This document shows, piece by piece, positions 6,301 through 63,227 of a DNA stretch of 64,000 bases. Position 1 is the stretch's first letter. Each line of letters opens with the position of its first letter. Location of the stretch: positions 434,001 through 498,000 of the forward strand of contig OZ017747.1 in the NCBI GenBank assembly GCA_963969365.1, given 5' to 3'. This DNA comes from Asterochloris sp. CNOR1. Taxonomy: Eukaryota; Chlorophyta; Trebouxiophyceae; Trebouxiales; Trebouxiaceae. A program made the position numbers and the translations under genes. The notes beneath the pieces were generated by a model. It made no database searches. It worked only from the letters and a program-made list of their open reading frames with translations, and was not told the origin of the DNA.

Positions 6301-9300
6301 TTGATCTGCAGCATTGGGCCAACTGCCAGCTGTACAACATTGCCTGGCTTTGCAGCCTCCAACTGCCTGGCAGACCCAGCTGTTCAACCTCACCTGACAT
6401 CTGGATCTTGCCTGGACCCCAAATGCCAGCTGTACAGGACTGCCTGGCTCTCCAGAACCAGGCTACAATTTACCCGCTCAGGATGGACCCAGCTTTGCAG
6501 CCTCCATGACACAGGGGTCTCTATTCTCCCCTCTTAGAACAATCCTGGCCTTGTCAAGCTGTCCGTTGCAGGAGGTCAAGGTAACTCACCCTCAAAGAAT
6601 CTGAATTCATCCTGCCCCTCCACAGCCACATTGGCCTGCTGCTGTTTGTACAGCTGGCGCTGGTACACAATCTCCTCAATGGTACCTGCAAGCGGCAAGG
6701 GGGTCTCTGTGTGGGCAGGGCAGGGCAGGCGCCAATGCAGGCAGGCTGCCAGGTAATGGCAGGGGAGCTGCCTCAAAGCTCATCTCCATGACATAGCTCA
6801 AACGATGTCACCAGACCTGACACTTGAGTTAGATGAGCCCGCCAGGAGTTGGTGCTGAGCAAGCACAGATCTAGCCAACAAAAGGGTCAAGCAAGGTGAG
6901 GAGCTGGCCATGCTGAAGCAGTGCTGCACTGTAGTGAGCCCCACCTGCAGCCACCAGGCGGAAGACGTGCACATCCCGGCGCTGCCCAATGCGGAAGGCC
7001 CTGTCCTGCGCCTGCATGTCAGCCGCGGGGCTCCAGGAGGGGTCCACAATCACCACTCTGCATCACAGCGTCATCTCATCTATGGGAACCAGTCACCTGC
7101 CTGTCGGCGGCTGGGCTGCAAGAGGGGTCCATGATGACCGCTCTGCAGGGACTGGTTTCGATCCAAATTTACATGGGCAGCTTGCAAAGCGGACAGCACC
7201 CAGCAGTTCGTTATGGTGGTAAGGCGCAAAGGGCTCATTGGAGGAGTTAATTGCAGGGCTGCTCTGCAGCAGGGTGTGCCAGCTGCCACCCAGTCAGTGA
7301 TTTGCTGCTCACTGCAGGGATGCATGCAAGGCAGGTGTGGCCTGGCCAGCACTAGAGGTGTAGGGCAACATGCCCTACATCAGCTGCATCAGAAAGCAAA
7401 CAGTGCCAGCTTGCGGATTTTCTTTATGAGATTTTCAAGTTTCCCAAAGGCAAGCACTGCAGCATGACAAGCTTCGATTGTTGCTTGGTTGCAAGCCCCC
7501 AGCAGGCAACACTCACTTGTTGGCTGCTGTGAGGTAAATCCCTGCACCACTGCAGCATGCCAAGCACTGACTGTTGCTTGCAAGCCCCAGCAGGCAAACC
7601 CACTTGTTGGCTGCTGTGAGGTTGATCCCTACGCCACCAGCACCCGTGGTGATCAGAAAGATGAACACGCTGGGGGAGTTGTTGAACTCGTCGATGTGTG
7701 CCTGCCGCTTGACCTGCCTGGTGTCGCCGTCTAGCGTCCTGGCAGCACAAACACAGGCGATAAACTCATGGCTTCAGTTCAGGCACAGGCAGTGTGCCTG
7801 GGACAGCAGCCCCTTTAAAGGTGCCATCGTCCAGCCATCTGACAGCTGGTGGGACCAAGCGGCAGAACCCTGCAAAGCCACCTATGATGCTGCACAAGAA
7901 AGCGCCAACAAGAGCCTGTGAATGGCAGGAGAAAGTGAACATCCGGGGCTTTTCAGATGCATGTCTGCCAAGTTGGCCAGCCGGAGCAGCCTGCCCATGG
8001 CTTGTTAGGCCACAGCGCCATTGCCATAGGGTTCATTCCCTGCTAGAGTTGGCATCAGCCACTTTGCATGTGCAAGTGGCAGACGGCAGCCCAGCCAGTG
8101 ACACCTCCTCAAGCGGTCTGCAAAGAGTTGAGGACGGCTGGGCTGAGCCTGTGCAGGTGGATGCAGCAGCACGCTGCATGTATGACATGGGCACAAGGTA
8201 GCATGATAGCACCTGTAGTTGTAGCCTGAGGTGAAGACCATCTGCTCAAGGATCTTCAGCATCCGCTTGCTGCTGGAGAAGATCAGCACCTGACGCACAG
8301 ACAGCAAGCAATCAAGATTGCTTGCACAGGTCCAAAATATAGCGCCAGCACATCGGCTGTGAGTTAACAGCGCGGTCACAGAGACTGTTTGGCTTCGGCC
8401 AGCCACATGCTGCCAGCAGGACTGCGGGTGGGACAGCAACTTGGTCTGAGGGTGCAGCAGACGCCGCAAGCTGTTGTCACGCAATGCCAGCAGCATGCTC
8501 AGGGGGCACATGATGCGCTGCATGCAGTGGGCTGCACATACGGCAGCGTCAGGGTGGCCCTGGCAGCACTGGCAGCCTCAGTGCAAGCACATGAAGCAGT
8601 GGCTTCAGGTCTACCAGCCCAGGGGCGCTGAGCAGTCACATCCACATCCTGGAAACAACATGGCCATGCTCAGGCCTCCGGGACACCCCACGTTCCTTGA
8701 GCCGCACCTTGTTCCCCCCATTGGTGTGCCAGAGGGCCAGCAGCTTCTGCAGCGCAGCCATCTTGCCGCAGGTCTCTGTGCAGGCAAGCTGCTGGAAGTT
8801 GGCGATTGGGGCAGTGCCCCCCAGGTCGTCCAGGTCGTCCCCCAACACTAGCTCAGCCACGGCCACCTCCCGATTGTGCTTGGCCTGCTCACTGCCACTG
8901 GCACTGGCTGACACAGGGCTGGCTGCAGGCACCACAGCATCTATGTTGGCCATGCAGTTGGCCACATTGTGGCAATGGCAACAGGTTTGGCTAGGTCAGC
9001 TCTAGCAGTCTTGCCAGGCCATCTAGCTGCACAAGGTCAGCTGAAGACAACAGGGCACTACACTCGAGCACTGCCACTGCACAGTAGAGTGGTCGACTAC
9101 TCACAGCTCCTGAAAGCGCCGCGCAGAGGGCTGACCGCAGGCAGCACTGGATCCGATGCTGCTACTGCAATTGTGAGGTGTGCGCCTGCCAACTTTCAAG
9201 AAAAGCCGCCAGGCAAGCATCTAGGACATGCCAACATGTGCAAAAGCACGTACTCAGCAATCACAATAGCCAACAGCAACTGCGCCTTGAGTGCCTTGCC

Positions 9301-12300
9301 AAAAGAGTTTCACTGAATACAGTGTACAAGACTGCCACCACTCACAGACCAGCCAAAGGAGGCACAGCCTGACCAGTGCTTGTTATAATGCGCCATGAGC
9401 AGGCATGATCTGAACCCCTCACCTTTGAGTAGCTCCAGGTGGTTTGCAATTTTGCGCAGGATTTGAAGGCAGGGGTTGATGATACACACAGGGCACAGGA
9501 TGGTCTCACTGCCCTCCCTGACGCAGCCCTCCGGCTTGTGGCAGGTGCAGCCCTGCAGGCGGCACACAAAGCAGTTAGGAGAAGTCTGCTGTATTGCTGC
9601 ACTTGTTCTTGTCCTTTCCTGCTCAACCATGCCCTCCTCCCTTCTTTGCGGATGCACCGTAGCTCTACCATCTCATCCCTTGCTGCATCTACCAGGGGTT
9701 GGTATGTGGGCCCACAATGGCTGGTCAGCAGTATGCAAGCTAGTGTCTTGGTGGGGAGTCAGGAGACACAATGGGGAGGGCAGACTTGCCCTTGCTGTGA
9801 GGTAGCAAGTGGCGTCACAGTCAGAGGGGCCAGCACCATGAAAGGCACAAAAGCAGTCACAGCACAATTTTGGGTTGCCACTGGACCATGCAAACTGAGC
9901 TGCAAACCCAGCAGCACAAAGCCCGGACGAAGCTGCGGTGCATGACAGCAGTCATGCCCACCTTGGGGTTGCTGTACGGATCATACTGATCGCCACAATC
10001 GCATTGGTGCAGTAATGGCCAGATGACTCCGCCCTCCTCAGCCTCGAGAGTCTTGTGGCAGCACCGCGCACGGCTCAACTTGCTGCCGCAATCACACTTC
10101 TCAAACCACCTGACCAGCAGCTGGAAGTCTGGGCTGTTAAGAGCGCGGCTGCAGGCACAGGCAGGCAAACCTGGCAGGCGCACAGGCCATCAACAAGAGG
10201 CCAACTAGAGTAGTAGTAGCAGAAATGGTGAAGCAGACTGATGGCTGGTGAGCTAACCAGTTGCAGGCAGCTGCTTTGTACTAATGTTAGGTTCTGGTAG
10301 TCAAGCAGTTAAGACAGGGAACATGCACATGACCACAGAGAAGCCTAGGAAGGAGGAGCATTGCTGCAATGGCCTGCAGCAACCAGGCGTAAGGGCATCT
10401 GACGGCTGCTCAGCACACAAGGCAGGCCCATGAGGTGCATTGCTAGCCTGCCAAAGAGCAAGCACTCATGATGCCACACCTGTAGGCTCGTAGCTGTGCC
10501 AGCGAGAGCGGGCAGAAGACCACGTTTTCAACTTTACGCGGGAGCTGATTGGCAATCAGCGCCTTTGTCCGCCGCTTGAGATACTTCTCTACCATGCTCT
10601 GCCACTGTGGCTGCACTGCCCGTGCCTAAAGGCAGCAAGCACATCACTGTCACTGCTGATGCTGTTCGTGGGCGGCATTGAGGAGATGCCACTGTGGCTG
10701 GACTCACTGTGTGTGCAGGCAGCGTGCGCATCAAATCCTGCACGATGTGTCTACAGTGCAATGGGCAGTGTGGAGCAGTCAATGGCCTGCCATTGTAGCT
10801 ACCCTAAATACCGTCTCTGGGAAACATGCACAACTCTGTCACAATTGTTGCTGAACTGCTCATCGCTGTGCATTCTGTGCAGTAATGAGCTGCAATCTCT
10901 GGCTGCCCCGCCACTGCCTACAGGAGCACGCACACCTGTGTGACCGTTACATCCGCTCAACAGGGGGCATCCCTCACCACAGCGTCAGTCAAGTGAAGCT
11001 TTGCACAGCAAGATGACAAGGCAGCCTTCACGCTGTGCGCTTCTGCCAAAACTCTGTCTTCAGATTCTGTTTGGGCAGCATGCAAAAGCACTCCTGTATC
11101 AACCAGATGGCAGCATTGCCAGCTCATGTTGCGGGCTCATGTTGCGGAAAAATTGCTGAATATATTGTGATGCTGGGGCTGCTCAAGTCCGCTGCCACAC
11201 CTAATAAAGTTGAGAGGTTGCTCCACGTCACCTTAGCCAGCTGGTGGGGCAGCGCGTCTTTCTTCTGGCCGTACTGCAGCGGAGTTGCGATCTCTTCGGC
11301 AAACCTCTTGCTGTCGATCAGCACACCAGGCAGGCCGACTGGAATGACCACGTTGAAGAGGGAGTGCAGCTCCTTGAAGCGGTTCTGCATCGGGAAAATC
11401 CATGGCCTTAGCTTGTGGATGGCCGCATAGATGTCTGCTAGCATGATACAACATCATGCCAGCAGTGTAAGCAGTAGTCAACAGCCAGATGCCTGAGTAG
11501 CGTTTCTCTGTCCAAGAGCAGACTGACGTCGGGTTGAACTCGACAAGCATTGCTCAACAGGGCTGCAGGGAGTGGAGTAAATACATTCCACCCCCCATAG
11601 CGAACTCAAAGGGACCTGCCAGCCCAGACAGCTGAAGGACCTCACCGGCATGATGGTGCCGGACAGGCCATAGCGCAGCTTGCACTTGAGCCTGCTGCAA
11701 GCCTGGTAGGTCTTGCTCTGGGGGTTCTTGATCTGGTGGACCTCGTCAAAGACGACGACATGCCAGGGCACCTTGAAGAACTCCTCCTGATCATGCCTGC
11801 ACAGCAAAGCGTCTACCAATGTGAGTGCTCAAGCAGCTGCTGTGGAGTCTGCGGAGGGTGAAGTGCTTGGCCGCAGCCCTCAAGGCAGGCACGGCCTTTG
11901 CAGCTGACAGCCCTGAACAGGCACGCAGCCAGCAAGCCAGGTGTTGCAGCCGTCACATGTGCATGCAGATTGGATGCGTCTGTTCCCTGCACAGTGTAGC
12001 AGGCGAGCTGCAGCATCTGCTGTAGTGCATTGTCAGTGCAGGGCCCACATGAATACTGCAGCACCAGAGTGCATGCTGGTCGAGGATACCTATGGGCTTG
12101 CAGAACTGAGCCTGCACCTACACGGCCTCTGCCTCAGTCGCACCTGCATTGTAGCCCTCGGACTGGCACACAGGCTTTTTGACAATCATCAAGCACTGCT
12201 GCACGCCAGCACCCGCCTCCATCAGCAGTGTGCAAAGGACACATGGCATGCTGCACGGGTAGAGCGCTGCACGCAGAACAAGGGCTCCCGTGATCTGCCT

Positions 12301-23800: not shown

Positions 23801-26800
23801 TCATCATCAGTTGCTCCGACTACCCAGAAGGCCTTGTGACTGGTCGTTAGCAGGAAGGGGAGGAGATGGAGAAGAGTGCATTATAACCCTTCTGCGCTGA
23901 CCAGGCACAACCATCTGGCATTGTACGTCAAAGACTGTGCCCTGCATGCTTGCAGATGGGGCGTCCAGGCAGCGTATCCCTGAATCAGGCGCGTGCCAAC
24001 CTGGCCAGCGTCGCCCACACGCTGCAGGGCAAGCAGGGGCTGCAAAGACATGCAAAGGCGTTCAAGGCCTACTTGGCTGGGCAGCTGCGCCTGACCTGGA
24101 CTCATGCAGGTGAGTCACTCCTGCTAGGCAGCTGCATCTTGTTCAGTTGTGCCTGGTCTCTAATGTGGCAGCATGCGGGGGATCTTATTTCAGGGGTGGT
24201 CATGCGGTTCAACAAGTGAATTTGCGAGCTGCATTGGGCCAGGAAGCCCTTCAGCTGAGTCTGCAGTCGCCACCTGGAGCATTGCACAAGCTGACCACAA
24301 CAGTCATCCCAGCTGCCTGCACACCCAGATGCTCTTGGGCCCCTCCTTGCACAAGCAGGCTGTGAGCCTCCTGTAGCAAGCACCTGCCAGCATTCAGTGT
24401 AATGCAGCAAACTAGGATGCTGCCCTTGTTGCACAGAGGCAACAAGGCTTCTGCAAGGCCAACCTGCGAGCGGAGCTGCCATCACTAACAGCAGCCCGAG
24501 TTGCAGACAAAGCTCCAGTCTCTGCAGTCAGGCGGCGCTGCTCCTGCTCTGTCCTGCCCTTACAGCTGTCTGCACCTCAGGTGAGGTCACTCAACCAGAT
24601 GCTACTGCAGTGAGGCAGCGGAATCAACTGCAGACACGTATGGCCTGAGAGAAGGGGGCCATCACGTATACTCTGCCAGGCCTGCCTGCAGGCTGTATGC
24701 GCTTCCCTCTTCACTGCAGAGGAGCAGCAAGGCTTCTGCAAAGCCCAGCTGGAGGTTGGGCACCTGCGCTTTCAGCACTGAATGCATGGCTGCATTCTTC
24801 AAATCATCCCTCTGCTGAGAACGTGTCCTTCTTACTGCAGGCCGGCAGCGTGACTTCTGTGAGGCCCACCTGCAGGGCATGGACGAGGCTGCCATCTGCA
24901 GCCAGCAGTGGCCCTGGTACCTGCTGCCGGGCGCAGACAACAGGGTGGCTCTCCTGGCATACAAACCAGGGGCGGGGCGCAGCAACGCCTGGTGGTGGCA
25001 GGATACTGGCCACAAGTGAGCTGCTGCATCTGGCCCCCTGTTGGTGTTCCTGTTGGTACATAGAGTGAAGAAGGGCGCTGGACTGCCTGGGAGTTGAGGA
25101 ATGCGGCTGCAGGCCAGGCCTTTTGCATGGGATGGCCTTTTCACGTGCATCCTGCTCTTCTCACTCCCTGCTCAGGGTGGGAGGAAGAGGGAGCCATACA
25201 GGAAATGAGAAAGAGAAGGAGAGTGAGGGCTGCAGGCTGGGCCCATACTGCTCAGTAGGGGAGCTGCTTGACATTCGTGCTGCCCAACTGGTGTTACATC
25301 TGATGTCAGGGGAGAGGCCAGCTGCAGCCCACAATGAAATCAGACATTGTAAGCAGACCAGGGGCTCCTGCCCAATACATTGCAGGTGCAGCACCTGCTG
25401 CCTGTAAATGGAGCAGCTCTGCTGCCGCTCATGTATGCTGACATCTCCGCTTGCAGGTATGGCATCTACACAGCCAGCCCTGCTGCTCAGGAGCCTGATG
25501 CAGCCAGCAGCATTCTGGACTGGGTGGCAGCCAGCCTGCAGTCCCTGCCTTATGAAGGCCCCGCCCCCAACGATCTCAGCAGCTTAGATGCGCTGAGCTT
25601 TGATGCACGGGCCGCCTGGACCGTGCTGGGGTGAGCGGGCGCCTGCGGCTGCTTGCGCCAGATGTGGCCTCCTGCCTGCTCGGCCACTGCCTGGCACAAG
25701 TCATCCATGTTTCAAGCATATAGGGGGCGTGCACTGCTGGATACCTGGGTCGGAGCGATGCTGCATGAGCCAGAGACGCTGAACGGCTACAGGGCGCTCA
25801 GGGGATGCTCCTGGCTGGTGCACTTGACGCAGCACCCACCAAGCTGCCCATCAGGCACCATTCCTTTGCTGGTGTCCCTGCCTGTGCTGTGCTGCCACAG
25901 CGGGCGCCTGAAATGCCTTCTCACCTGCAGCACATGGCTGGCTGCTGCGGTGGACACGCTGGGCCTCAGGAGCAGCAGCTTTGTCACCGCCTTCCAGCGA
26001 GCCTGCAGCACAGTGGCTACCTTTGTGCCCCAGCAGTTGTGGCAGATGGTCTTCTCAGCACTCCCACTGGTTGCCTTTGCACTCACCCTGCTTGGGCTAT
26101 GTCTTCTGCCATTGCCAGGTGGGTCTCTGCAGCTCCCTGCTCCTCACACAGCATGGGACAGTGTTCTGCTCCGTGGTGACATAGTGTCTGTACCGCTGCA
26201 TGTTGCCCTCTTTTCTGTAGAGTCTGACCGCTTGGCAGTTTGAGGCAGCCCAGACGTACTGCTTGAATAGCCTGCATCAGGGAGATGTCTGGAGGATCAA
26301 GCCTCTGAGCTTTCTTGCCTATGGCAGGCTGCATGGCACTCCCAGCACCTCTGATACACCAGGTTGTCTATACATCTGCAGCTCAGCAGCAGCAGCAGCA
26401 GCATACAAGTCAACCAGGGCAGCACCAGCAAGCACTCAATGAAGAAACCACTCCTGAGGAACGGCGCTCTGCGCAGCTGGACAGACACATGCGCAAGTGA
26501 GCAATTCAGCAGGAATGCAAGACCTGCAGAGTGCCATCCTGAACGCTTTGGCTGGGCGTGTGCGCAAGCATGACGTGCTTGCGCTCTGCTCCTGGTCCTT
26601 ATGCTGAGTACAGGCGCCTGAGTGTGCTGGTGGTCTAATTTGCTTCAACAGCCAACAAGGTGCCCTCCAATGCTGCTCTGCATTACTCTGCATCAAGAAG
26701 TGCGAGCAGCGGCGTGCGCTGCAGGTTCAGCGCTGCGGTATGGGCCCTGGCCCCTGATGCTCAGATTCTGGACCCAGAGCAGCAGCTGCAGGGGGTGGGG

Positions 26801-27244: not shown

Positions 27245-27310
27245 GCATGCCCTGGTGTACTGATTTCATTCCTATGCTGTGGTTGATGTTTGGCATATCA
27301 TTCATTCAGT

Positions 27311-33500: not shown

Positions 33501-36500
33501 CCTTGCACAGCAGTCTGTCAAACATTTAAAAGCCTGTAGACACGGGTTTCATATAGTCTCTGCATCACTTTCTTCCTTGTCAGCAGATTGTTGCATGATC
33601 CTGCTTGTTGTGGCTGTGATGGGAAGTGATCCTGTGCACATCGCGCAGACACCTCAGCAAGCTGGGCAGCCAACATGAGCCTGCAAGCGGGAGACTCTGC
33701 ATCGCATTCAAGCACCAGCCGGCATTTCATCCGTAACATGTCTCCTGCCGCAGAACGAATCGCCCGTTGTGGTGCTGAAGCTCATGCCAGTGGGCACAAC
33801 CAAGACTGTGGTGCGCATGTTCTTCAAGGGGTTCAACATCGCTGAGAATGGCATCTGGTATGTCTACCTGGCCAACGGGGAGCCAGCATCCTGGGGCTAT
33901 GTCGTCTTCATTGACCAGTCCGAGGCCAGCGCAGCTATTGAGGTGAGGACCCCTGCTGTGCCTGAAAGGTGTCTCAAGGCAAGATGTCCTCAAGAGAAGT
34001 CTGTTTCGTAAGGCGGCACCTCACAAGACCTCTTTATCCTGCTGCTGCAACCTGCAGGTGGTTGACAGCCTGCCCAGAGGCCTGCTGACATGCTCACAAT
34101 GGTCACCACACAGCACCTTTGATACTGGCATCTTTTGCAGGTACCTCACCTGACGTCCCGCAAGAGATTTGCTGCAATGGCCTGCTGAAGTGCTGGGTGC
34201 AGGCAAAGCGCAGAGCGCAGCGGCCACACGTGCCCGCCTTCTGCCCCCTGGACCGCAACCCTATTTCAGAGTCTGGCAAAAGCCAGCATACCTCACCTGA
34301 CATCCTGCAAGAGCTTTGCTGCAATTGCCTGCTGGCCTGCTGTGTGCAGGCACAGCGCAGAGCGCAGTGGTCACACGTGCCTGCCTGCTGCCCCCTGGAC
34401 CGCGACTCTGTGTCAGAGTCTAGAAAAGCCAAAGTACCTCACCTGACATCATGCAGGAGCTTTGCTGCAAGTGCCTGCTGGTGTGCTGTGTGCAGGCAAA
34501 GCACAGAGCGCGGTGGCCGCACGTGCCTGCCTTCTGCCCCCTGGAACGCGTCTCTATTTCACAGTTTGAAAAAGCCAACAAGTATGACGAAGAGGTGCCA
34601 AGGAAGGATGTGGACAAGCTGGTGGGCAGCTCTGCCAGTCTCTATAAACAGCACCCCTCTACGCTTGTGGTTGGCTGCAAACATGTGCTTCTGCCGGGCT
34701 GCAAAGACAGCACCCCTCGTACTTGTGGGTTTGCCTGTAGGTGTGCCCTGCCATGCTGCACAAGGAGCACCTCTTGGCCTTGTGGGTAGGCCTGACAGTA
34801 TGCCCCTGCCATGCTGCAGAGAGAAAACCCTTTGTGCTTATGGGTGGGCCTCAAAGTACGCCCTCAAAGGCTGCACAGACACCACCTGGTGGAGGAACCA
34901 GCAAGGTTGCTCAAGCACCAGTTTTGATGCCTGCAGAAGCGCCTGGATGGCTGCCCATCAGCGTTGCAGCAGCCGCCTGGCATGCAGGTCTGGCACCATG
35001 TGAATGCAAAGCATCTCCTGCTGCAGTTGAAGTGGTCACGCAACCAGGTGGTGGACAAGCTGGAGGGTGAGAAGCTTCCCCCAGAGGTGGGCTTCAGCTG
35101 GACTGCTTTAGCGCTTGTCTTGTGGTCATGCTTGTGCAAGACTCCTCCACAAGAGGCGTATGTCTGTGCCTTGTGGGTTGCGGGCTGTCTGTGTTGCATC
35201 ACAGCTGAGCTAACCTTCCAGCCTTGCTGTTGCAGCGTGATGACCTTGTTCAGGCATGTCTGCGCTGGTCATGGATGCTTCTTCTGTCTCTGCTTGTCCC
35301 TAGAGATGATTAAGTCCCCTTCTGCATGCTACGCTCACTATCTGCTGACCCGTACAGGTCCAAGCAGGTGCAACATGACCACCGTGAAGCAGCAGAGCTG
35401 GATCAGGCTAAGGCATTGCTGCCCTGCATAAGCAGCAGGGCTGCTTGCGGTCTCTGAGACTTTACCGGCCTGCTTCAACAAGTGCTTGTGCCCTGCAGGC
35501 TGCCTCAACTCTAAGCAGCAAGTTTTGGCGCTCCCTGCATGCGCAGCACAGTCTGACATGGGTACTGCTGGTGTGCGTAGGTAGAAGCGGCCCATCCTGA
35601 GCAAGTGTGTGGCTCCCCTGCAGGCTGCGTCACCCTCCAGCGGTGTCCTGCAGCTGTCGCAGCTGCCCCTCAGTGCCACAGAGGAGGACCTGCGGCAGTT
35701 CTTTGGGTCAGAGTTCCCTGTGTTGAAGGGAGGTATTCACTGGTGTGTGACTGCTGGCAACCAGGCCACTGATACTGCTTTTGTGGAGCTCGAGAGCGAT
35801 GCTGTGGCTTTGGAGGCTGTGGTGAGTACAGATGGCCTCTGCATGGGTGTGCACACGATCTCTGATGCCGCTAAGTAAGCACTTGTGCACTGTCACACTT
35901 TGATGTCACCGATGTTCAGTCATCTTGGAAGTGAGACTCAGTGTGGCTCTGTGTACTCATGCATGCAGCAACCAGCATGAGGAGCAAAACAAGGAGATGA
36001 CCTCCTGCTGCATTCAGGGGTTGTGCAGCTCTCTGCTCGGACGTGGGACGCCCAGCTGGCCAAGTCCAGAGCCTGACTGCTGAAGTGAATTTTGTGCTGC
36101 AGAGGGTGCTGCGGCAGAAGGAGTTCACCACCTCCAAGTCTGGGCCGCACCCCTGCACTTTGCAGAAGACCCCTCGCTTCATCTTTGAGCATGCCGCCGT
36201 CAGCAAGGACAAACCCCTGGTAGAGGTGACCTTGGCTGCTTCATGCAGAGAAGGCTGCCTTCAGGCCCAGCTCAGCACCGCTGGCCTGCCCTCACATTGC
36301 CAGGCCAGGTGTCGCTTGTGGGCGTCAATCTGATCTTCACTGCATGTGCGCAGCACGCTCTGGTGGGACCGCTGCATGTGCACTGATCTTGCTGGAGCTG
36401 CCCTGCAGGGACACATCATTTCAGAAGCCAAGCAGTGCAAGAAACTCCCTGCAGATGCTGGAGACCAGCAAAAGCCTGTGGACGGAGGAGCTGGGACAGC

Positions 36501-39500
36501 TGCTGACTCGGCATACGCCTCTTCTGCAACACAGGAGGCAGTGTCTGCTGCCAAGGCATCGCCAGATGATGCCAAGGAATTGCCAGATGAGCAGCGTGCT
36601 TCAGGGGCTGACGAGCCAGATGCAGGTGATTGCTGCTGCTTGCCACTTTCAGATCTCCAGGTTGCCATCTAGCAATGCATTGAACTTTTGAGCATTTGAT
36701 GTGCCCATCTGGCCACACACCACTGCACTAGTTGTATGCATGCCTGTCAGCAAGCTGCCAAAGCACATGCAGACACTACAGAGTTGATGGGCTTGCTGCC
36801 ACGCACCAGGCCGCCATGCAGCAGGCATCTCCGGTACATGGCATCTGAGCAGCAGCAGGGAGCATTTGTGGATCTAAGCTTGCAGCCAAGCCTAACACTG
36901 CCCCACTGCAGGGCCAGCTAAAGGGTCACAGGCGTCAGGCAGCCCCAAAGGGTCAGATGGGCAGAGCCAGCAGCCAGGAGCCGCAGACCTAGCTGGACAT
37001 CAGACTACCACCAGCCAGACTGCCTTGGTTCCTGCAAGTCAGACCAGCCCTGCTGAGGGCAGCCAGGCGGCAGGCCCTGAGCTTGCTGGCAAGGCCAGTG
37101 ATGCAGTGGCAATTCCCACGCTCCTCAACCTGCTCCCGCAACCAGCCAGTCGTCCTTTTGCGGCCCCAAGCGAGGCTGACTCTGACAACCTGAGCGTTGC
37201 TGGCAAGCAGAAGCGGAGACGTGGCAAGAAGCCCCTGGGCAACTTGGGGGAGCAGCATGCTGCCGAGCGCCAGCAGTCTGGCAGCGCAGCATCTGCCGCA
37301 GACAAGCCTGCTGCCGTGCCCACCCAGGCAGAGCTGCGCGCCGCAGTACAGCAGCGGGCTGCAGCAGGCAGCGCCACAGATAGAGCCAGCTGGCTGCCCG
37401 ATGCGCAAGGTGCTCGAGAAAAGCCCAAGCCCAAAAAGAAGGCTCTGCAGCCACAGATCAACGTGGTGGAGTTGGCGGCAAGCCAGGTGGACATGTCGTG
37501 GAAGAAACAACTGGAGAGGCGCCAGCAGCCTGGGCAGGCACCTGTCATGAGCCCTCACACGCAGCCGCAGCGCCAGGCTGCAGATCAGGAAGCTGCGCAG
37601 GTGGGGCCAGGCAGGCGCTTGCAGGAGCAGTCTTCAAAGGAAGAGGTTGCCGCGCGGCAGCAGGAGCAGCCTGCACAAAGCGAGAGTTGCGCTGAGGCTC
37701 CTGCTGCGCAGCTTGAGGCAGGCGTGGATGTGAGGGCAAAGGTAATATACTGCAGGCAATGCTTTTCTGTCTCCACTGCTGCACAGCCTTTGTGCTGCTG
37801 GCTGCACTCAGCCCAGCGCTGAGATTGAAGCCTTTCAGCAATGGACACTGGGAAGAAATCAGCAGCATTGCCCCTGCACTATGAGGGTGGCCATGGAGCG
37901 GGGTGACAGGCACTGCATTTGGTGCCCGTATGTCAGCGTCAACTTGCAGGGTCACTGCCTCATGTCCGTGACTTGTGCAGCACCCCCTCAGCAGCTGTGT
38001 TGGCTACGGGCCTGGCTTGCCCAGCAGCAAAGTGGCCCTGAGCACCTCCAGCAGCTGCCGCTGAGCTGAGCAGCCTGCACATGTAGGGGCCGGCTCCTGA
38101 AGTGCACCGGCAGATGCAGTGGGAGCGGTCAAAGACACAGTGGATGGGCGCACCGGTGCAGCCGCAGCCCCCCCAGCAGCAGCAGCAACAGCAGGCCCCG
38201 CGGCTTGAGGCAGAGGCCCCTTCCCCGCAGCAGCCGCCTGCGGCTGTCGAGGCTGCGGAGGTGCCAGGGCCGCCAAGCGCGACGCAGGCTGGGGCTGGGG
38301 CAGCAGGCATCCTGCTATTTGGGGACTTCAAGCAGCAGGAGGTGGCGTGCTTTGAACCTCAGGCAAGGCCAGAGCCGAAGCAGGTGACTGTGGGCAGGGT
38401 GGAAGCACACATTGCTGACAGCTGACCACTGCAGCCGCTTTTGGGCGGCAGCCCGCAGCGTGAGCTGAGCCACTCGTGAGCTGCAGCTGGGCATTGGGGA
38501 TCCCACGTCAGTGCTGCATCTGTGATGTAGTGCCTCTGTGCTGACTTCTGGGCTACCTTGGACCTTGCCCATTGGTGGCTGAGCCTGTGTGCTGACTGCT
38601 GGGCTGCCATTCCACAGCAGGAAGGGGGTCTGCCACTCCTGTGTAAGGCTCAAGGCTGTGCATGTCCAGGGCTGACAGTTTCTGTGTGGTGAATGCTGTG
38701 CTGATATGCCATTGCAGAAGGAGTCTGCGACTCCACTGCAGAGAGAGCCTGCTGCTTCTGTATTCCACTTTGGGCTGGATCCAGCGGTGGTGGCCGGCAT
38801 CCCACGTGGTCCGGAGGCCCGGTCAGCAGAGGTGGAGCAGGCCAGGCCACAGGCCAGCGCTGTGCCCGCCAGCAGGCAGCCAGAGGATCCAGGCCCCGCC
38901 TCAGCACCTGCTGCTCCTGCTGCCCAGGCTCCTGCTGCTGCTGCCCCAATGCTACCTTACGAGGTCGAACAGAGGCCGCTGCAGCAGCTCAGGCCTGAGC
39001 CACTGCCGGTATCACCGCAGCAGCTTGGACCTAAGTCCCTGCCAGCAGCCCCGCAGCAGCAGCTGCCTGTATCCCTCGCGGCGCCTGTGGCCGTCACGCC
39101 AGCAATGCAGGCTGGCACCACTCAGCAGGGCGCTGCCGTGCCAATCGGCGGTCGTCAGGACCAGGGAGTGGCTGCTGTGCCAATTGACGGTCGTCAGGAC
39201 CAGGGAGTGGCTGCCGTGCCTATTGGCGGTCCTCAGGGCCCCGGAGTGGCTGCTAGGCAGACAGAGGACAGCAGGAGTGGGGTTGAGGTGCCTGCAGCAG
39301 CAGCCCAGGCTGCAGCTGAGAGCGGTGCCCCTGCAGCCCTGCTGCCGCGGAAGCCCCAGCCGCCCAAGAGACGAGGCCCTGGGCCTGTCCAGGCGCCGCC
39401 TGCAGCTGCCGAGTGGGAGCAGGTTGGCGCCAAGCCGCGACCCCATGGGGCGAGGCATCAGCAGCAGGTGCAGGGCGGCACTGGGCCCCAGCAACAGCCC

Positions 39501-43371: not shown

Positions 43372-45291
43372 CTATGGGCAATGTGCTTGGCAGGCAGACC
43401 CGTCAGATGCCCTTTGCTTGCCTGAGTCCTCAACCAGCTCGATGGTGGCCCAGTTGAACAGCTGCTGCAGGGTGAGTTCCGCCAGCTTACGCATTGCTAC
43501 CAAGCATGCCTCCAGCACTGCGGCGTCAACCTGCACAGCATGCAGGGCCCAGCTGAACAATGGCTGACTGTTGCAGGGGTGCATGCTGCACCCACTTGGG
43601 AGAGCATTACAGCCGGATCAGGCCTAGGTTGGCTGGCTCGGGACTCAGGCAAACATCTCCAGCAGCAGCAGCCAACTCCTCCAGCAGCACAGCTGATCCC
43701 TGTGCAAGCAAACCCAGCAGCTAGCAAGGCGGCTCAAACACAGTACGCGAGCCGCCCTCCTATACGCCCCCGCATGATTCTCGGGGCCGCACCTGCACCC
43801 TGTTGCTTAGGCAGCATCCCTCAGCCCAGAAAACGGCCAAGACGCAGCAGGCAACAGGGCCTTGCCCAGTGGCGCCATGTTCTGCATGGGACAAGAGTGT
43901 GGTGTGAACCATCAGTAGATCAGATGTACCCTCAGGACCCCCTGGCATGCAGGAAGCCAGGCTCCGTCACTGCAAGCCACATGCAGCAGGTGAGAAGGTC
44001 TCACTTGGGCTCTTGCGTGTGCAGCACTCCTCGGCAAAACCCAGCCAGACAGTGGTGCTAGCTTTCTTTGCCTCTTTTGCCGTTGAAAGTCCCTATGCTC
44101 CCTGTTCACATCTGGCTGCCTGAGGCTCACGGAGAAGCGCAGCTGCACCCCCTTGCTTGTGCAGCAACACCAAGCCCTATGCATGCGCAGCGTCTTTCAG
44201 CTTCACACGCAGCAGGCGAGAGGATCACAATTGGCGCCCCCGCTTGCGTCTCAGACTACCTACTGACCCATGGGCGCACCTGCACCCTCCTGGTTGCAAT
44301 GCCGGTGCTCCAGTTCAAGTGCAGGTCCACGCGCGAGAACTGCTCCAGCGCAGCCCCGCTCGGTGGGCCCTCCAGCTCCTGAGACCACAGCTGCTTGTCA
44401 GGCCAGGCTGCCAGCAGCACTGCTGCCGCCGCTTGGGGGGACGAGGCTGCTGCCCGCTCAAACAGGGGCCCCATGCTGAAGTGCAGCGACATGCCGCACA
44501 CCAGAGTCTCCAGCATGTGGGAGGGGTAAGTCCACCATCTCGTGCCGGCCTGCCTCAGCTGCAGGCGCAGGTGCTGGCTCAGCAGGGCACTCTGATGAGG
44601 CTCCACCTGCAGACACATCCTTGGCTCAGCTCCCTGCTGCAGGGAATGGCAGGTGGCGGCTGGCCCTCCAGCCACTCACTTCCTGGCACCTGCAAGCACA
44701 GGCACTGGCCAAGCGGGGCGCTGCTGTGCCCCTCCACCTGCAGTTGGGACACGACAGGTGTTGTCTGTGTCTTTCAGCGCAGGTCCCTGCCTGCAGCACA
44801 TCCTGGCGTGGGTACTGACTGACCAGGGCGGGGCAGTGCAGCTCCACCTGAATCAGGGCCCAGACTCAGCTTCAGGAGATGGCTGCTGTATGTCGTTCAG
44901 CAGGGCCCACCTGCAGGCCAAGGATGGGAAGTGCTGAGCTGTCTTTTTAGGGCGCAGGCAATGGCGGCTGCCATGTTCCCCGCAGGCGTCGCCGGCGCTC
45001 CCTGGCGGCAGCATTGGCTTCTCCAATGCAGGTAGGGGCCCACAGGCACTCAACTGACTTGGGCAGATGGCATCACTTGGCGGCAGCAGGAGAAGCTGTG
45101 AGGTAGCCGTCTGGGTCTATGCCGGGGGGGCTCATCATGCAGCTCACATGCTTCTGCAGGTTGCGGCAGACCCAGCCCAGCCGCAGTGCTCCACTTGGAC
45201 CAAGCGAGTGCATGACCGACTGCATCGCCGGCCAGGGCAGCTCCAGCAGAGACAGGGGCTGCTCCTCTGCCTGAGATGTTGCCTCCATCAT
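43372..45291 (-). CDS. F-box protein with COMM-like C-terminal domain (223 aa)
   Basis: Exons on the complement: 45148-45291, 44280-44606, 44110-44151, 43372-43530, all phase 0. Residues 12-48 form an F-box (LSLLELPWPAMQ...LRLGWVCRNLQKH). The next 109 codons begin VEPHQSALLSQ and have no assigned fold. The C-terminus, VDLHLNWSTGI, GVQLRFSVSLRQPD and VDAAVLEACLVAMRKLAEL, has the tryptophan, beta-strand and final-helix layout of a COMM domain. F-box proteins bring substrates to SCF ubiquitin ligases, and COMMD proteins themselves bind cullin ligase regulators in animals, so the pairing would make sense, but it is inferred. The start ATG at 45291 is the first in frame. A small extra exon around 44915-45030 cannot be excluded. 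Confidence 0.6.
44600..44915 (-). repeat. Four-copy echo of an exon acceptor in the F-box gene
   Basis: The acceptor used at 44607/44606 recurs upstream at 44738, 44847 and 44911. Minus-strand starts are CAG|GTGGAGCCTCATCAG (real), CAG|GTGGAGGGGCACAGC, CAG|GTGGAGCTGCACTGC and CAG|GTGGGCCCTGCTGAA. Two of the copies stay open for more than 25 codons, so they could serve as alternative exons. Confidence 0.75.
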
Positions 45292-48900: not shown

Positions 48901-51900
48901 GGTTTCAAATGCCACAGTGCTGGCAGCAGGTGAGCCGCCCATGAGCTGGCGTTTGCTGATGACCAGCTGCTTGAGCACGGAGGAGTTGCTTGCCAAAGCG
49001 GTCCACTGCTGCCATGAGGCGGCATCCTGATGGCCCTGACTGCCTTCAGGCGGCCTGGCAGCCAACACCAGCTCTGCACGGCTCTTTGATCAGCTGCTGG
49101 ACAACCCTGGCCTTGCCAGCAAGGTGGGACAATGGGCTGCACCCTGCCTGCAGCAGTCATGCTTGTTGGGGAGGGGCACAGCAGAAGCCGACAGTGCGAT
49201 GCAAAAGCCTCAGGAACAAAGACACGGAGACAAGATGGCACCTCTGCAGCTGGTCAACAGCCTCAGACAGCACAGACCCATTCACTCCAGCCTGGCTGGT
49301 ACTTTGCTGTGACTATGTGTGGTCGCCTTTCTCGGCCAGAGCGCACCACAGAGTCTGACAACAGGTTGCTAGGGCCTGGAGCCCACTAATGCATGTGCAG
49401 TGCCTGCCTGGCTCAGGCTGATGTGCGCCTGTGTCTTGTCTGGTGGGACAAGCACAGCAGAACCCTGAAGCTGCACTGCCAGAGGCTCGTAGCTTGCGTG
49501 CACCAGCAAAGCTCAGGCCCGGCTGCACCCTGAGTATGGCTCTGTGTGGGTTGTTTCACTCAAGTTTGATTGTGGTTGGTCCATCCTCTGCTTAGTAATG
49601 ATGGCCCAATCTGATTTGGTGGGTGATTGCAATTACCAAAGGTGGTGCAGCCTGCTGTTGTCAGGCCGGCCAATTCTGCACCGCCTCTCGCACTGCCATG
49701 GCTGACGGCTCCTCAGCTATCAGCTCCCCAGCCCTTGCTGATGCTGGCTGCTCCCTGCTCCCTGCAGGTGGTCGTTGCACCGCATATCTGGGGCGATACC
49801 ATTGCTGGGGAGGGCCGCCCCATCAATGGTTCTGCGCTGGTTGCTGAGTTCACCAACTCGTTTGGATACCTTAACACTGGCAGAGGGCACTGCAGGTGGC
49901 CCTCTTGCAGTGGCCGGGAATGTGTATGACACCGCCCGCTCCAGCGCAAACCTCTGCTTTGCCACTCCTCAGCTGACCCTGCCTTGACAGCAACACGCAT
50001 GCCATGTGTTTGAGAGCTGTGCTTCGACGTGAGGCTCTCATCCTACAGTGTAAGCGCTTCTCTCAGATGGATCCCCTCATGTGCAGCCCTGACTACTGCA
50101 CGGGGCTGCCTGGGTGTCCCCAGGTTGACCTTCACCCCGTTGACCTCCTCCCCACCCAGTGGCCACAGCTTGTCATGCCCAAGGTTGCCTCGCCAGTGCT
50201 GACCCCAGAACACGCTCTGCTCGATGGCTCAACACCATGCAGCGCATGAGGTTCCCAGTCAGGCTTAACACAACTGGTGGGCACATGGGTGGCATGCTGA
50301 ATGGCACCACCTCAGATGTCTGAACCTGCCCCTGGCTGGTGCTTCAACCCAATTGTTCTTGCAGGTCCGACACCACGCAGTGCATGAGGTTCCCAGTCAT
50401 GGTGGGCAGCCTGGGCAGCCGCCTGGACAGCAACACCTCCGACATCTGGACCTACCAGCAGCTGCAGCGCTACATGGCCAACCAGGGGGACGGCGTGGAT
50501 GGGCTGCACGGGGACATCAGCTCTTTTGCCTGGTGGCAGTGGGCCAGCGATGCCAGTGACACGGGCGGCATCCTGCAGGTGGGCTGCGGCAAGCCCTCCT
50601 GCTGTGGACGCTGCGCTGCTGTATTCATTGCACAAGCTGCTGGCTGTGGCAGGCCGCCATGTCAATGTTCCGGCTGAGAGCAATGCGCAGCTTGCTGCTG
50701 CATGAGCTGCTGGCTAGTGTCAGTGAGCCAGCCGATCAGGGACTCCGCCAGCAACCTGCAGGTGGGCTGCAGCATGCTGGCCTGCTGTGGGCTGCAGCAA
50801 GATGCTGGCTGCGGCCGACAACCGTTTCAGCGTGCCATGGTGGCTTTGCACTGGCTGAGAGCATCATGCAGCTTGCTGCTGCATGCGCTGCTGCCTTGTG
50901 GCAGTGGCCCAGCACATTCAGCAAGGCTGGCGGCATGCTGCAGTCGGACAGTGCCAACTTGTCCTGCAGCTTTGCAAGGAAGGGCGCTGGCCTGCCCCCG
51001 CCACCTACTGCTCAGATGCGTGGGCACACCAGGTTCTGCTCACCAGTGAGCCTGCTGTTCGTTGGGCAAGGCAAGGCAGCCGCCTTGCGCCACCTCATTC
51101 TTACAACATACCCCACTCTTGTCTGAGTGCTGCAACATAAGTGCTGCTGCTGCGGGCTGCAGGGGGATGGGACAACTATTGACTGGAACAAAGTGTCCTA
51201 CCTGATCTCGCTGGGCCTCCAGCCCAGCTTCTGTGCCCCGAACTGCACTGCAGCCTCTGTGCCCAGCAGCCTGGCCGGCCTACGCGTCCCCATCGTGGCC
51301 GCCCCCGCGCCTGCACCTGGTGGGCAGTTGCCCAGCTCACCCAATGCACAGCTTGTGTGCCCAGCAGCCATGCCGGCTTAGGCACCCCTGTGTTGCCTGC
51401 ACTGGGTGCACAGGGGCCTGACTCACTCCTAGCACAGAGCCTCCGCGCCAGCCAGCCCGAGCGCTGGCGCATGCAGCAGCGCAGCCGCAAGCTGGCGGGC
51501 AGCCTCTTGCCGCCTGGCATGGGACCGCTGTGCATGCTCGCTCGCTGAAAAAATTTTCTGGTCATCCGCCTTCACCAGCCTGACTGTTGTGGTGGTCACA
51601 GGGGTTGCTCATGCCACATTGTTGTGACCCACACAGTACTCGGTGGTAGCAAAGTCCATGCAGCTTGCCTTCTGACCTCCCCCCCTCTGTGGAAGTGCAA
51701 AGACGGCCACGGCTTGCAGCAGGCGTTCTCACTGCCAGGCACGTGGTGGCCATTCACCTTCATCAACACACCCTGCCCACTGACATTTCCCTGTGCTTCT
51801 GCAGAGATGGCCACAGCTGCAGCAGGCGCACCTGCACCCTCTGCAGCCCTGGTACACGCGCCAGCACCGCTGCCTGCTCAGCCGCCGGCCCAGGTAGCTG

Positions 51901-53705
51901 CAGCGCCAGCACCGCTGCGTCCCCCAGTCGCTGCTGCTGCTGCACCATCTGCAGCCCTGGTACACGCGCCAGCACCGCTGCCTGCTCAGCCGCCGGCCCA
52001 GGTAGCTGTAGCGCCAGCACCGCTGCGTCCCCCAGTCGCTGCTGCTGCTGCAGCAGCACCCGCTCCAGCACCCGGGGAGGCACTCAAAGCTCCAGCACCA
52101 GCACCGCTGCCTCTCCCAAGTGCTGCAGCAGCAGCAGCACCAGCCCCAGCACCAATGCTAGCCCCTCGTGCTGTGAGGCCCATGCTAGAGGGGCCGGCAC
52201 CTGCACCAGCCCAGGGGACAGTCACGTCTGCGCCTGCCCCGGCGCCAGAGCCTGCCCTAGCGACAGTGGGCTTCACCTCTGCAGCCATGCCTGCTCCTAT
52301 GCCTGGGCCGCCTGCCATCGCTGCAGCGCCCAGCAGCAGCGCTGCAACACCTTCTCTGCCTCCCAAGACCCCGGCACCCAGCATGACCCTGGCCACGACG
52401 CCTGGACCACCTGCCTCCACAGCACTGCCCAGCAGCAGCTTGGCAGTGCCCCGACTGCCTCCTTCTTCCACCACAATTCTGTCTGCCAGCCACGCGACCT
52501 CTGCGCCGACTGCATCCACACCCCTTCCCAGAAGCAGCACCTCAGCGCCTGTGCCGCCTGTGACAATTGCAGTGCCCAGCACAAGCACGGCCCAGCCAAG
52601 GCCACCTGCAACCACCACCATCAGCACGAGGCCAGCCACGACTGCACCGCCCAGCACCGCAACAGCGACACCCAAGGCACCTGCCTCCACCGCAGCACCC
52701 AGAAGCGGCAGCACAGCCCTGCCGGCGCCAGTCCTTACAAAAGTGCTGATCAGGACCAGTACGCCGACGACGCCTGCCTCCACTGCAGCACCCGTGACTG
52801 GGGGCACAGACCTGACAGGAGCTGTGTCTGGGCCAAGCAACAGCAGTGTTCAGTCGTCGGCGCCGCTGGCGCAAGCGCTGCAGCAGCAGGTTCCGAGTGC
52901 AACCCCTGCCCAGTCGCCGCCACCCAGCACGCCCCCGCCTTCCACCGGTGTGCTTGGGTCTGCTAATGCCATGTCCTTGCCTGGCAGCACCAACCAGCTG
53001 TGTTGATGCAATGCTGGCCACTTGCTGCCATATTCAAGCTAAAGCGCTCGCCGCATTCCATGATCCTGCCAGGCTAGGCTTTGCTGTTGCACCGCAGCAA
53101 CGTGTCAGCCCTTCAATATTACAAGGTAGCACTGAACAAGCCACACTTTGAATGCAGTAGCAGCCAGGCCAGTGCCAACAAGTATCATCATGCCGCCCAC
53201 ACCAGTGCCAAGAACGACCATCTCAAGTCCCACGCCAGTGCCATCTACCACCACCGCCTCAAGTCCAACCAGCACAGCTGCACCGCTCTCAGGCTTCCTG
53301 CAGCCTGCCAGTGACGGCATCGGCACAGTAGGGTGCCTGGTGGGGGTGACCACAGGCACAGCGTGGGTGACTGCGGGGCAGGCACTCAACGCCATCAACC
53401 TTTACATCAGCAATCTTGGCAGTGCCACCATTGCCAGTGGATGGAGCATGCAGCTGCTGAACAGCAACTGGCAGAGCCTGCAGCAGTCTTGGAACCTGGC
53501 AGTGACGTCCTCAGGGGCGGGCCAGGTCACTGGGCTTGCCACACAGCCATGGGAAGCCCTGTTGCCCAACACAACCAATGTCATCAATGCCGGCCTAATT
53601 GTGGCCATGGCTGGAGCCGGCACCTTTGACCCCCAAAGCATCTCCATGACCACACAAATGGGCCAGCTCCTCACCTGCCAATTAGTCTCCCACCAGTTGC
53701 CATGA
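45988..53705 (+). CDS. Secreted GH5-like protein with two cellulose-binding-like modules, catalytic residues missing (1246 aa)
   Basis: Exons: 45988-46297, 46731-47197, 47517-47912, 48203-48428, 48852-48929, 49050-49123, 49768-49895, 50365-50578, 51163-51319, 51805-52947, 53158-53705, all in phase. A signal peptide (residues 1-21) leads into a CBM-like module (about 30-150, PPWTLSLAGP, LSGLATQPFQRLL). A GH5 barrel spans about 200-660, with ALGFNCVRLPFSFADLY, VDIL, WADG, APHIWGDTI, FAWWQWASDASDTGG and IDWNKV. A proline/alanine/serine/threonine linker covers about 684-1090, and a second CBM2-like module about 1100-1240 (SGWSMQLLNSNWQ, VTGLATQPWEALL). GH5 enzymes use two glutamates in NEP and GEFG motifs. 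Here these read DDP (421-423) and GSLG (574-577). It is probably a cell-wall-binding pseudoenzyme; this is an inference from the residues. The donor at 48428 was chosen for phase. Confidence 0.78.
50220..50400 (+). repeat. Echo of the GH5-like exon 8 start
   Basis: The exon start (CGACACCACGCAGTGCATGA, then GGTTCCCAGTCAT) is copied in the intron at 50230-50262, about 140 bp upstream, with 29 of 33 positions identical by eye. Confidence 0.8.
50540..50950 (+). repeat. ~182-bp tandem echo of the GH5-like exon 8 donor
   Basis: The exon end with CTGCAG|GTGGGC at 50578 is followed by two tandem units with matching junctions at 50761 and 50943. The units share GGCTGAGAGCA (50670 and 50848) and CAGCTTGCTGCTGCATG. 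The first copy keeps GTGGGC; the second has lost the donor. Confidence 0.8.
51840..52055 (+). repeat. Near-identical 108-bp coding tandem repeat
   Basis: Units 51840-51947 and 51948-52055 each encode 36 residues of the linker (SAALVHAPAPLPAQPP and so on). I see about one or two differences, so the duplication is recent and in frame. Confidence 0.85.
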
Positions 53706-61728: not shown

Positions 61729-62140
61729 AGTATCCTGTGTACAATCCATTCCTTGTGCACTGCAATTTCATAATCTCCTTTGACGCATGCGGACTTCTAC
61801 TTCAAGTTGAGGATGAGACTGGCGTTTGATGGCTGTAAAGCCAGTTGCATGTTTTAAACTTCACACCCTGATGCATTCCTCACAAAGTCTGACCACTTCT
61901 GCTGACATCAGGCAGCACAATGTCACCAGGAGCTGAGACCAACAATGATGTGAGCTCTAACACAAATCAGATGTGGACAGCCACGTAACCTCTTCCTCAC
62001 ACACAGTGACCATTTCATGGTGCAAGGAAATTCAGTCAAAGAAATCGAAGAGTACGCAGAGGAAGCCTTCAGCTGACACATCTGACAGCAGTGAACAATG
62101 GCGGAAACAGGGCAGATGGAGGTTGTCGAGGGTGCCAGAG
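61729..62140. other. Intergenic region between convergent RPF2 and acyl-CoA synthetase genes
   Basis: Contains TGTAA at 61834-61838, 106 bases after the RPF2 stop. No coding is supported. Confidence 0.5.
61834..61838 (+). terminator. TGTAA polyadenylation-type signal after RPF2
   Basis: Positioned 106 bases past the stop, as expected for a green-algal polyadenylation signal; short motif, weak on its own. Confidence 0.35.
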
Positions 62141-63227
62141 TCAGCGCCCATTCTGGGAGTTGAGCTTTTTGTACATGGCGTCTATCTGCCCCTGGTATGC
62201 CTTCTGCAGCTGGGGCCTCTTGAGCTGCACAGCAGGAGGCAGTGACTGTGAGAGGGACAGATACAGCCAGATAGGTACTGGGAGAGTGTGAAACTGAGCA
62301 GGATCTGAGCATCATACTGCCTGACAGCGCAGCTTGCGGCCCCAACCTTGAAGGTTGGCGTCATGAGCTCATTCTCGACTGAAAACTGTTGCGAGTCCAG
62401 GTAGATGGACTTGATCTGCTCAAAGCCCTGCACAGCAGATAGACGCACCCCTGTAATGCTTCTGGGCAGTTGTTGCCTCACAACGTCTGCACTGTGGTAC
62501 TGGAGATGTCATGTTGCGCAGGCTGCTCTCAGCATCGTGATTACTACCCACAGCACCTGCCAGCTGCCTGCCACAGCAACACTTACCAAATCAGACTCAT
62601 CAGCCAGAAGGAATGTTTGGGTACACTCCGACATAATCTGGTCCACCATTCGAGCACAGCTCAAGAGCCTGGTGGAAGCAGTCCACCTTGAGCCTGCCGG
62701 CAAAGCCGTTGCGGTAAGCTGCTCTGCAGACATCTGTTGCGGAGAACACCAAACTTGAAATACCCCACCTCTGCTGCCATGTTCAACCTATCAAAGTTGT
62801 GTGCAAACAGCCCATTCCAACTCTGACAAGGCAGCATCTCACCTTGAGCTTGCTCTCCTTGCCTAGCGCATTGAGCACTTGAATAGACTGTGTGCATGGT
62901 GCAGTTGAGCAGACTGTGTGCATGGAGTCCTCTAGAAAGCATGCTGGGGTGCAAAGCCACATGACATCTCACAAACAGCCCACCTTTGAGCTTGGCCTCC
63001 TTGTCTGTCGCAGTGAGCTGTTCCAGACACAGCGGACTCCCGCGTTCAAGGAGTCAATCTTTAGACGGACAGCCTAACCAACTGCCAGCAGCCCACCTTG
63101 AGCTTGCCCTCCTTAGCGGTTGTGTTGAGCTCATCCAGCGCCCACTGGCGGGCGCCCTCATCCCGGCACAACTCTGCATAGTCGCCGCCCTTGCCCTTCT
63201 GCTTGCCCCACGCCATCAATTTGTCCT
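62141..63227 (-). CDS. LACS: Long-chain acyl-CoA synthetase, C-terminal exons (continues beyond window)
   Basis: Three exons on the complement, 63097-63227, 62347-62427 and 62141-62224, join in phase 0. They encode DKLMAWGKQKGKG, ALDELNTTAKEGKLK, GFEQIKSIYLDSQQF, ENELMTPTFK and LKRPQLQKAYQGQIDAMY, then a stop. This is the conserved C-terminal lobe of eukaryotic long-chain acyl-CoA synthetases, which activate fatty acids to acyl-CoA with ATP. ENELMTPTFKLKRP corresponds to the family's ENGLLTPTFKLKRP signature with its catalytic lysine region. Earlier exons lie upstream and outside the window. One candidate, LVAILVP read at about 63790-63822 (family FLVALVVP), is present but its splice phase to 63227 is not resolved. 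Confidence 0.85.
62680..63140 (-). repeat. Four-copy echo of an acyl-CoA synthetase exon donor
   Basis: The true donor after 63097 reads AAGGAGGGCAAGCTCAAG|GTGGGC. Related junctions follow in the intron at about 62983 (GAGGCCAAGCTCAAAG|GTGGGC), 62842 (GAGAGCAAGCTCAAG|GTGAGA) and 62686 (GGCAGGCTCAAG|GTGGAC). Spacing is 113, 141 and 156 bp. Confidence 0.8.

Follow-up and report, generated by a model that had tools for sequence, protein, structure and literature searches.

Abundant local duplications of the kind described here are said to occur in mammalian and human genomes, where Thomas and colleagues reportedly recorded short paired duplications ('doublets') in 2004 and where, by an account attributed to Messer and Arndt in 2007, tandem duplications reportedly form the majority of recent short insertions. 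According to Pace et al. (2009; PMC2671141), repair-mediated capture of nearby DNA has given rise to short, closely linked germline duplications in vertebrates, and Ma et al. (2016; PMC4974935) report that a tandem duplication in the potato RdRp gene crosses an intron-exon boundary. We analyzed a related pattern in the green alga Asterochloris sp. CNOR1, a lichen photobiont, in a stretch of 64,000 nt (the window) that corresponds to positions 434001-498000 of contig OZ017747.1 (C2). Introns in this stretch carry degenerate copies of the edge of the adjacent exon, which we term echoes. An initial annotation, made from the letters of the window alone, had noted echoes in several genes and had interpreted them as the product of repeated duplication across exon-intron boundaries. 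Our analysis confirms that exon-edge echoes are real in this genome, as the matches between edges and introns, their direction and the local excess of direct repeats all exceed null expectation, and the interpretation is partly supported. The echoes are probably decaying relics of short local direct duplications, mostly separated by 30-300 bp, which are found all across the portions of the genome that we sampled.

The assembly comprises 56,383,464 bases in 21 contigs; for comparison, the published genome of Asterochloris glomerata is given as 56 Mb in 151 scaffolds, with a mean of 9 introns per gene (PMC6652019). Our sample, 314 kb out of 56.4 Mb, consisted of 264 kb around the window and 50 kb of contig 9, a second chromosome. 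Exons were called with a splice-aware hidden Markov gene finder that was self-trained on the sampled sequence and whose trained consensus was CAG/GTGAG for donors and TGCAG/G for acceptors (the slash marks the junction). This finder returned 35 gene models with 704 introns of median length 228 bp, and several of the models merge adjacent genes.

Close direct repeats and matches of exon edges to their own introns

Direct repeats, scored ungapped at every offset, are concentrated at short distances. The 314 kb contain 228 direct repeats that are 20-400 bp apart and 7 inverted ones, whereas a single direct repeat was found at offsets of 10,020-10,400 bp and each of five dinucleotide-shuffled versions of the 264-kb part gave 0-1. 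In both contigs, the density of direct repeats at 20-300 bp exceeds that at 10-20 kb by a factor of tens or more, and the excess declines past about 300 bp. Contig 9 alone holds 37 direct and 0 inverted near repeats, the same excess as is observed around the window, and self-comparison of the window (blastn score of at least 40) returned 28 direct and 0 inverted repeats. When clustered, the repeats number 210, or 0.66-0.70 per kb, and 122 of them have periods of 50-149 bp. Two or a few copies in the same orientation, close together and more frequent than by chance, are what short local duplication is recognized by.

To compare exon edges with their own introns, we used 40 exonic bases as the query, leaving out the intron-side splice consensus, and took the introns of other gene models as the null. 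The test covered 516 acceptor and 501 donor edges of the 704 predicted introns, after exclusion of edges shorter than 30 bp and of introns outside 90-1500 bp. Matches to the edge's own intron at p<=0.001 were obtained for 20 of the 516 acceptor and 23 of the 501 donor edges, with 0.5 expected for each. Reverse-complemented queries gave none (0/516 and 0/501, or 0/1017 in total), exon interiors gave 3/228 and 1/219, and the intron beyond the other end of the exon gave 3/481 and 1/491. Own-intron matches are thus far in excess of those to the introns of other genes, those of reverse complements and those to the intron beyond, and the first refuting outcome named in the initial annotation did not materialize. 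When the test was limited to introns between exons of at least 60 bp, 16 of 355 acceptors and 13 of 355 donors matched; on contig 9 alone, with the same exon limit, this strict test is thin (1/59 acceptors and 2/59 donors). A gapped version of the test, restricted to window introns, recovered 8 of 200 edges at p<=0.005, where 1.0 was expected.

At p<=0.001, 42 of the 584 introns tested carry at least one edge echo, spread over 18 of 33 gene models. 'Pervasive', the term used in the initial annotation, thus means about one intron in 14 at this stringency. Across 46 listed cases, echo and edge are 14-378 bp apart, and the matches are mostly 20-60 bp long. Introns with an echo have a median length of 414 bp versus 253 bp for those without, which is consistent with the proposal that echoes lengthen introns, but detection bias may contribute to this difference.

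Explanations of the echoes

Repeats that span a predicted junction have a preferred direction. The partner of an acceptor-spanning repeat lies upstream in 37 cases, compared with 14.2+-3.7 (largest 25) in 300 circular shifts of the annotation, and the partner of a donor-spanning repeat lies downstream in 33 (14.3+-4.1 when shifted; largest 25), counts in which a repeat over several predicted junctions enters more than once. This is the arrangement that had been noted initially. After 3 of the 210 clusters were dropped for periods below 25, the remaining 207 comprised 94 noncoding clusters (less than 15% exon in both copies), 89 that pair exon with non-exon sequence and 24 exon-exon clusters. 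When only exons of 60 bp or more are considered, 79 of the 89 exon/non-exon pairs lie no more than 25 bp from the edge on the echo's side of the exon. The periods of 23 of the 24 exon-exon repeats are divisible by three, a figure that may be somewhat inflated because the finder prefers in-frame exons. Since noncoding repeats are as common as exon-intron pairs, and those within exons are almost all in frame, duplication need not target junctions.

The pattern of direction and frame is the expected outcome of coding selection acting on indiscriminate duplication. A duplication that spans a splice junction, whether it arose by slippage, template switching or staggered-break repair, would leave an intact site and reading frame on the copy next to the exon body. 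The extra copy could be removed with the intron by splicing, so that the mutation would be nearly neutral, and because the exon-adjoining copy is intact, a surviving extra copy should lie toward the intron, upstream of acceptors and downstream of donors. Such pairs would stay recognizable because selection holds the exon copy while the echo drifts. Within exons, in-frame duplications would survive, and within introns survival would be free; the net outcome would be growing introns and a stock of decoy splice sites that gradually fade. That duplication has occurred across exon-intron boundaries, as originally suggested, is supported by the almost exclusively direct orientation of the repeats and by some head-to-tail or nearly head-to-tail pairs that span a predicted junction. 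Two of these, both outside the window and numbered here by the 264-kb stretch, are a 52-bp pair of period 53 and 81% identity at 44524, around a donor, and a pair of 62+62 bp with 94% identity at 262741 (C2:596742), around an acceptor at 262833.

Junctions might instead be true duplication hotspots, owing to chromatin, R-loops or co-transcriptional breaks, which would make boundary duplication a separate habit of the genome. In favor of this explanation, pairs that span a junction in the expected direction reach 2.3-2.6 times the circular-shift null, yet repeats are equally common outside exons. We compared the clusters with a simulation in which local duplications fell uniformly on the gene structure as it is today, coding-breaking events were removed, decay was free at non-exon sites and four times slower at exon sites, and survivors were detected by the same scoring. 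The observed ratio of exon/non-exon to noncoding clusters, 89/94 = 0.95, falls between the simulated values for present introns (0.52-0.65) and for introns at 60% of their length (1.05-1.13), those at 40% giving 1.63-1.97. The same holds for pairs of at least 88% identity, with 26/31 (0.84) observed versus 0.50-0.62 for present introns and 1.03-1.05 at 60%. Pairs that span a junction by at least 8 bp on both sides behave differently, as their ratio to noncoding pairs (70/76 = 0.92) is almost double the 0.38-0.51 simulated with present-day introns. Because the overall ratio lies inside the simulated range, a junction-specific process is not required, and we consider true hotspots unlikely, while a junction preference of about two-fold is compatible with the data. 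It is unlikely that junctions are preferred duplication sites and that repeated junction duplication, with the exon copy dating each event, is a main route of intron growth. The suggested genome-wide habit of boundary duplication is more plausibly widespread duplication seen through the filter of splicing; with noncoding repeats as common, a special habit is not supported.

A selected function of the echoes, as alternative exon edges or decoy splice sites, is very unlikely. We analyzed echo composition at 21 acceptor and 25 donor edges with p<=0.003. About half of these echoes keep the splice site (AG in 11/21, GT in 11/25), and donor echoes have a mild excess of third-position mismatches (12.9/12.0/20.4% by codon position), both of which could point to function. 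However, retention of AG and GT is at about the level predicted by the identity of neighboring bases, which, in windows that extend five bases to each side and include the site itself, is 67% and 70% at acceptors and 67% and 57% at donors. Acceptor mismatches are even over codon positions (12.2/13.3/11.9%), and the codon-position data do not reveal the coding constraint on both copies by which duplicated alternative exons are recognized. Moreover, in the two genes checked, those for the ERCC6L2-like protein and acyl-CoA synthetase, the database protein models skip the echoes. With this skipping and the scant sign of coding constraint, the idea that echoes seed new exons is not supported in these two genes. 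Functional alternative exons are disfavored, and the echoes look like decaying relics. Identity falls fast into the intron, and on the exon side it falls within about 40 bp. Such a fall fits intronic decay in both copies with the exon held, although the 40-bp query also contributes.

Intron birth by tandem duplication of AGGT-containing exon sequence, with echoes as leftovers, is highly improbable. On the upstream side, the repeat offset equals the intron length in 3 of 664 introns at >=55% identity (null 0.06%) and in 2 of 664 at >=65% (null 0). This signature is nearly absent overall (1/664 at >=55% on the downstream side), whereas echoes pair an edge with its own intron at the short distances given above, and we rejected this candidate on the equality of offset and intron length.

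Chance similarity, composition bias or one dispersed repeat can be dismissed almost entirely, for although the sequence appears by eye to be rich in CAG/TGCAG words, the pattern is not reproduced by shuffles, reverse complements, distant offsets or the introns of other genes. An introner or other dispersed repeat was rejected as well: 7000-7740, the only stretch searched (with very common words skipped), matches one place in the genome, and the single repeat at a 10-kb offset further speaks against such a family, a possibility raised initially. Inverted repeats, at 7 versus 228 direct, were rejected as the source.

Several points weigh against the reading of the echoes as relics of indiscriminate local duplication. 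The exon annotation is self-trained, and it invented a micro-exon, mistook echoes for exons and favors in-frame repeats. The excess of junction-spanning pairs over the simulation with present introns has been noted, and the fit of the model needs shorter ancestral introns, which is an assumption. In the exon-interior control, 3 of 228 matched where 0.2 were expected. Partners on the exon side of junctions, of which few are predicted, number 14 and 12 and so remain at the null level; mislabelled edges may explain some of them. The third-position excess in donor echoes gives a Fisher p=0.0098, or p=0.076 when acceptors and donors are pooled, although it is small and silent change within the exon itself can be a sufficient source.

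The completeness of the copies is a further difficulty. For the 110 clusters of score >=20, minus 19 multi-copy ones, the fraction of copies that fill at least 80% of the period varies unevenly with identity, being 3/37, 5/13, 1/17, 5/11 and 7/13 from the lowest band (<75%) to the highest (>=90%, in which one pair is listed and counted twice). Some near-identical pairs are also gapped, such as one of 64 bp at period 117. Together these observations indicate that head-to-tail duplication by itself does not account for all of the pairs. The gaps in near-identical pairs reflect either later deletions or events that copied nearby DNA without adjoining it.

Echo loci in the window

Echoes had been reported for seven genes, and they hold for six of these. 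The exception is the p44 gene, which has no repeat cluster of score >=16 and whose sole candidate edge has p=0.013. Copy numbers are as originally described, and the periods, 85-293 bp among the listed echoes, resemble those given initially. Likewise, the reported lack of echoes in RPF2 and TMEM18 agrees with our finding of no repeat cluster (score >=16) in RPF2 or in the 25-31 kb stretch with putative TMEM18-like sequence. The RPF2 model is identical to a database protein save for one false micro-exon of 9 residues. Pfam matches among the window genes are Ssl1 (p44), SNF2/helicase, DnaJ-thioredoxin and AMP-binding, and the Pfam search returned no match for the pieces initially labelled as putative GH5-like and F-box genes. 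DNAJC16-like, U-box and TMEM18 are also labels of the initial annotation and are used here as putative names.

Three echoes lie on the minus strand in the ERCC6L2-like gene, whose protein has jgi/Astpho2/9978 as its best match. The 5' edge of a true exon (7011..7062, acceptor side at ~7062), where the Asterochloris protein P0241 covers 21 residues, has an upstream echo 85 bp away at 7096..7147 (80.8% over 52 bp, E 3.7e-6). The 3' edge of exon 7604-7738 with its donor and intron start (7548..7642), identified by self-comparison, gene model and P0241 mapping, has a downstream echo at a distance of ~90 bp (7455..7557; 82.5% over 103 bp, E 1e-19). Both echoes are outside P0241, and this protein and five relatives from Trebouxia, Myrmecia and Coccomyxa are continuous across the residues that correspond to the two sites. 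The gene finder used echo 7097-7142 in place of the true edge and also spliced in echo 7517-7549; these two echoes are missing from the edge test because the finder called the echo copies exons. The third echo, at 10687..10733 (edge test p=0.001; gapped p<=0.005), lies 87 bp upstream of the acceptor junction of exon 10480-10625 (10600..10646; gene model, repeat cluster and P0241 mapping).

The acyl-CoA synthetase gene, which has the AMP-binding Pfam match and lies on the minus strand at the right end of the window, encodes a protein with 100% identity (rounded) to jgi/Astpho2/Aster-06780, in which one residue differs at a junction trimmed by eye. The donor edge of exon 63097-63227 (63086..63138), to which the database protein P0121 maps at 63243-63097, is followed by two downstream echoes, 62832-62860 and 62986-63026 (together 62832..63026; repeat cluster, donor-edge p=0.001). 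Another downstream echo, at 63793..63831, is 269 bp from donor edge 64062-64100 and was found as a repeat cluster and in both the edge test and the gapped test. Its source is exon 64057-64176, just right of the window, to which P0121 maps at 64186-64058; residues 554-567 of P0121 also match the echo (63830-63789), over 14 residues only and with E 0.069. Farther right (67438-67503 in window numbering), residues 313-334 of the database protein find a second match, of 64%, immediately before the true exon on its upstream side, and the finder called this echo as an exon.

The remaining echoes are in genes with putative labels. On the plus strand, the putative DNAJC16-like gene has a predicted acceptor junction at 24720 (24715..24751; gene model and repeat cluster) with an upstream echo 285 bp away at 24430..24466 (81%, score 20). 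This pair was found as a repeat cluster only and is absent from the edges at p<=0.03; its two copies flank a predicted exon. In the putative U-box gene, also on the plus strand, two tandem upstream echoes of 146 bp each (34141..34433; 3.0 copies, 85% matches; edge and gapped tests) precede the third copy of the array (34434..34580), which holds the acceptor, at 34495/34496, of a predicted exon. The putative F-box gene, on the minus strand, has an acceptor junction at 44556..44612 for predicted exon 44280-44606 (gene model and repeat cluster) and an upstream echo 131 bp away at 44687..44743 (72%, score 17; gapped p<=0.005).

Both edges of predicted exon 50365-50578 have echoes in the putative GH5-like gene on the plus strand, and both edges were identified by gene model and repeat cluster. 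An upstream echo at 50232..50261 lies 138 bp from the 5' edge (50370..50399) and matches it at 93% over 30 bp (p=0.001; gapped test). The donor junction (50554..50607) has one downstream echo 183 bp away at 50737..50790 and a second, weaker one at 50892-50943 that copies 50527-50578, each found as a repeat cluster and in the gapped test.

Other repeats were observed in the sampled sequence. Tandem repeats in coding sequence whose period is a multiple of three occur at 51832-52052 (108 bp x2.0, 98% matches) and 39132-39253 (39 bp x3.1, 87% matches) and are probably products of the same duplication process within exons. At the left end of the window (1-1956), positions 1-566 and 1494-1956 form a long diverged direct repeat (76-82% identity) whose copies are separated by ~1.4 kb and which contains an internal repeat of 81 bp. 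This stretch looks like repeat-protein coding sequence, possibly of the ankyrin type. Outside the window, in C2:508001-518000, a 28-bp direct repeat at 177557-177610 of the 264-kb stretch carries the ACGGACAGGT motif every 14 bp and sits at a predicted exon end, with donor-like sites recurring in tandem.

Comparison with described duplications

With the exon copy as a slowly changing reference, small intron duplications become countable and datable, and the share of local duplication in intron growth and in cryptic splice sites would become measurable in annotated genomes. Echoes also mislead gene finders, and such errors may recur in genomes of this kind that are annotated without RNA.

Like the echoes, the duplications described by Pace et al. 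(2009; PMC2671141) include closely linked copies of exons and intron splice sites. In contrast, those inserts were found in interrupted transposons and cases less than 50 bp from their template were removed as tandem, whereas the algal copies are near-tandem, almost only direct and scored at exon edges. The potato duplication (PMC4974935) is a single case that gave a new intron and an inserted exon; in the alga there are dozens, and the extra copy has apparently been absorbed into an existing intron. Intron gain by AGGT tandem duplication likewise adds splice sites, but it implies an offset equal to the intron length, a signature nearly absent from this alga. Rogers and Bendich (2025; PMC11782384) also describe direct repeats at the borders of exons and introns; theirs, of 4-30 bp, join both ends of one intron and are read as insertion scars, unlike the algal matches, which are mostly 20-60 bp long and each join one edge with its own intron. 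Among the matches listed from the open-access literature, we found no report of genome-wide junction duplication density or of one-sidedness at exon edges. The copying of splice sites by local duplication is already known, as is a single case that crosses a junction; what is new here, in the one genome sampled, is their density and their one-sidedness.

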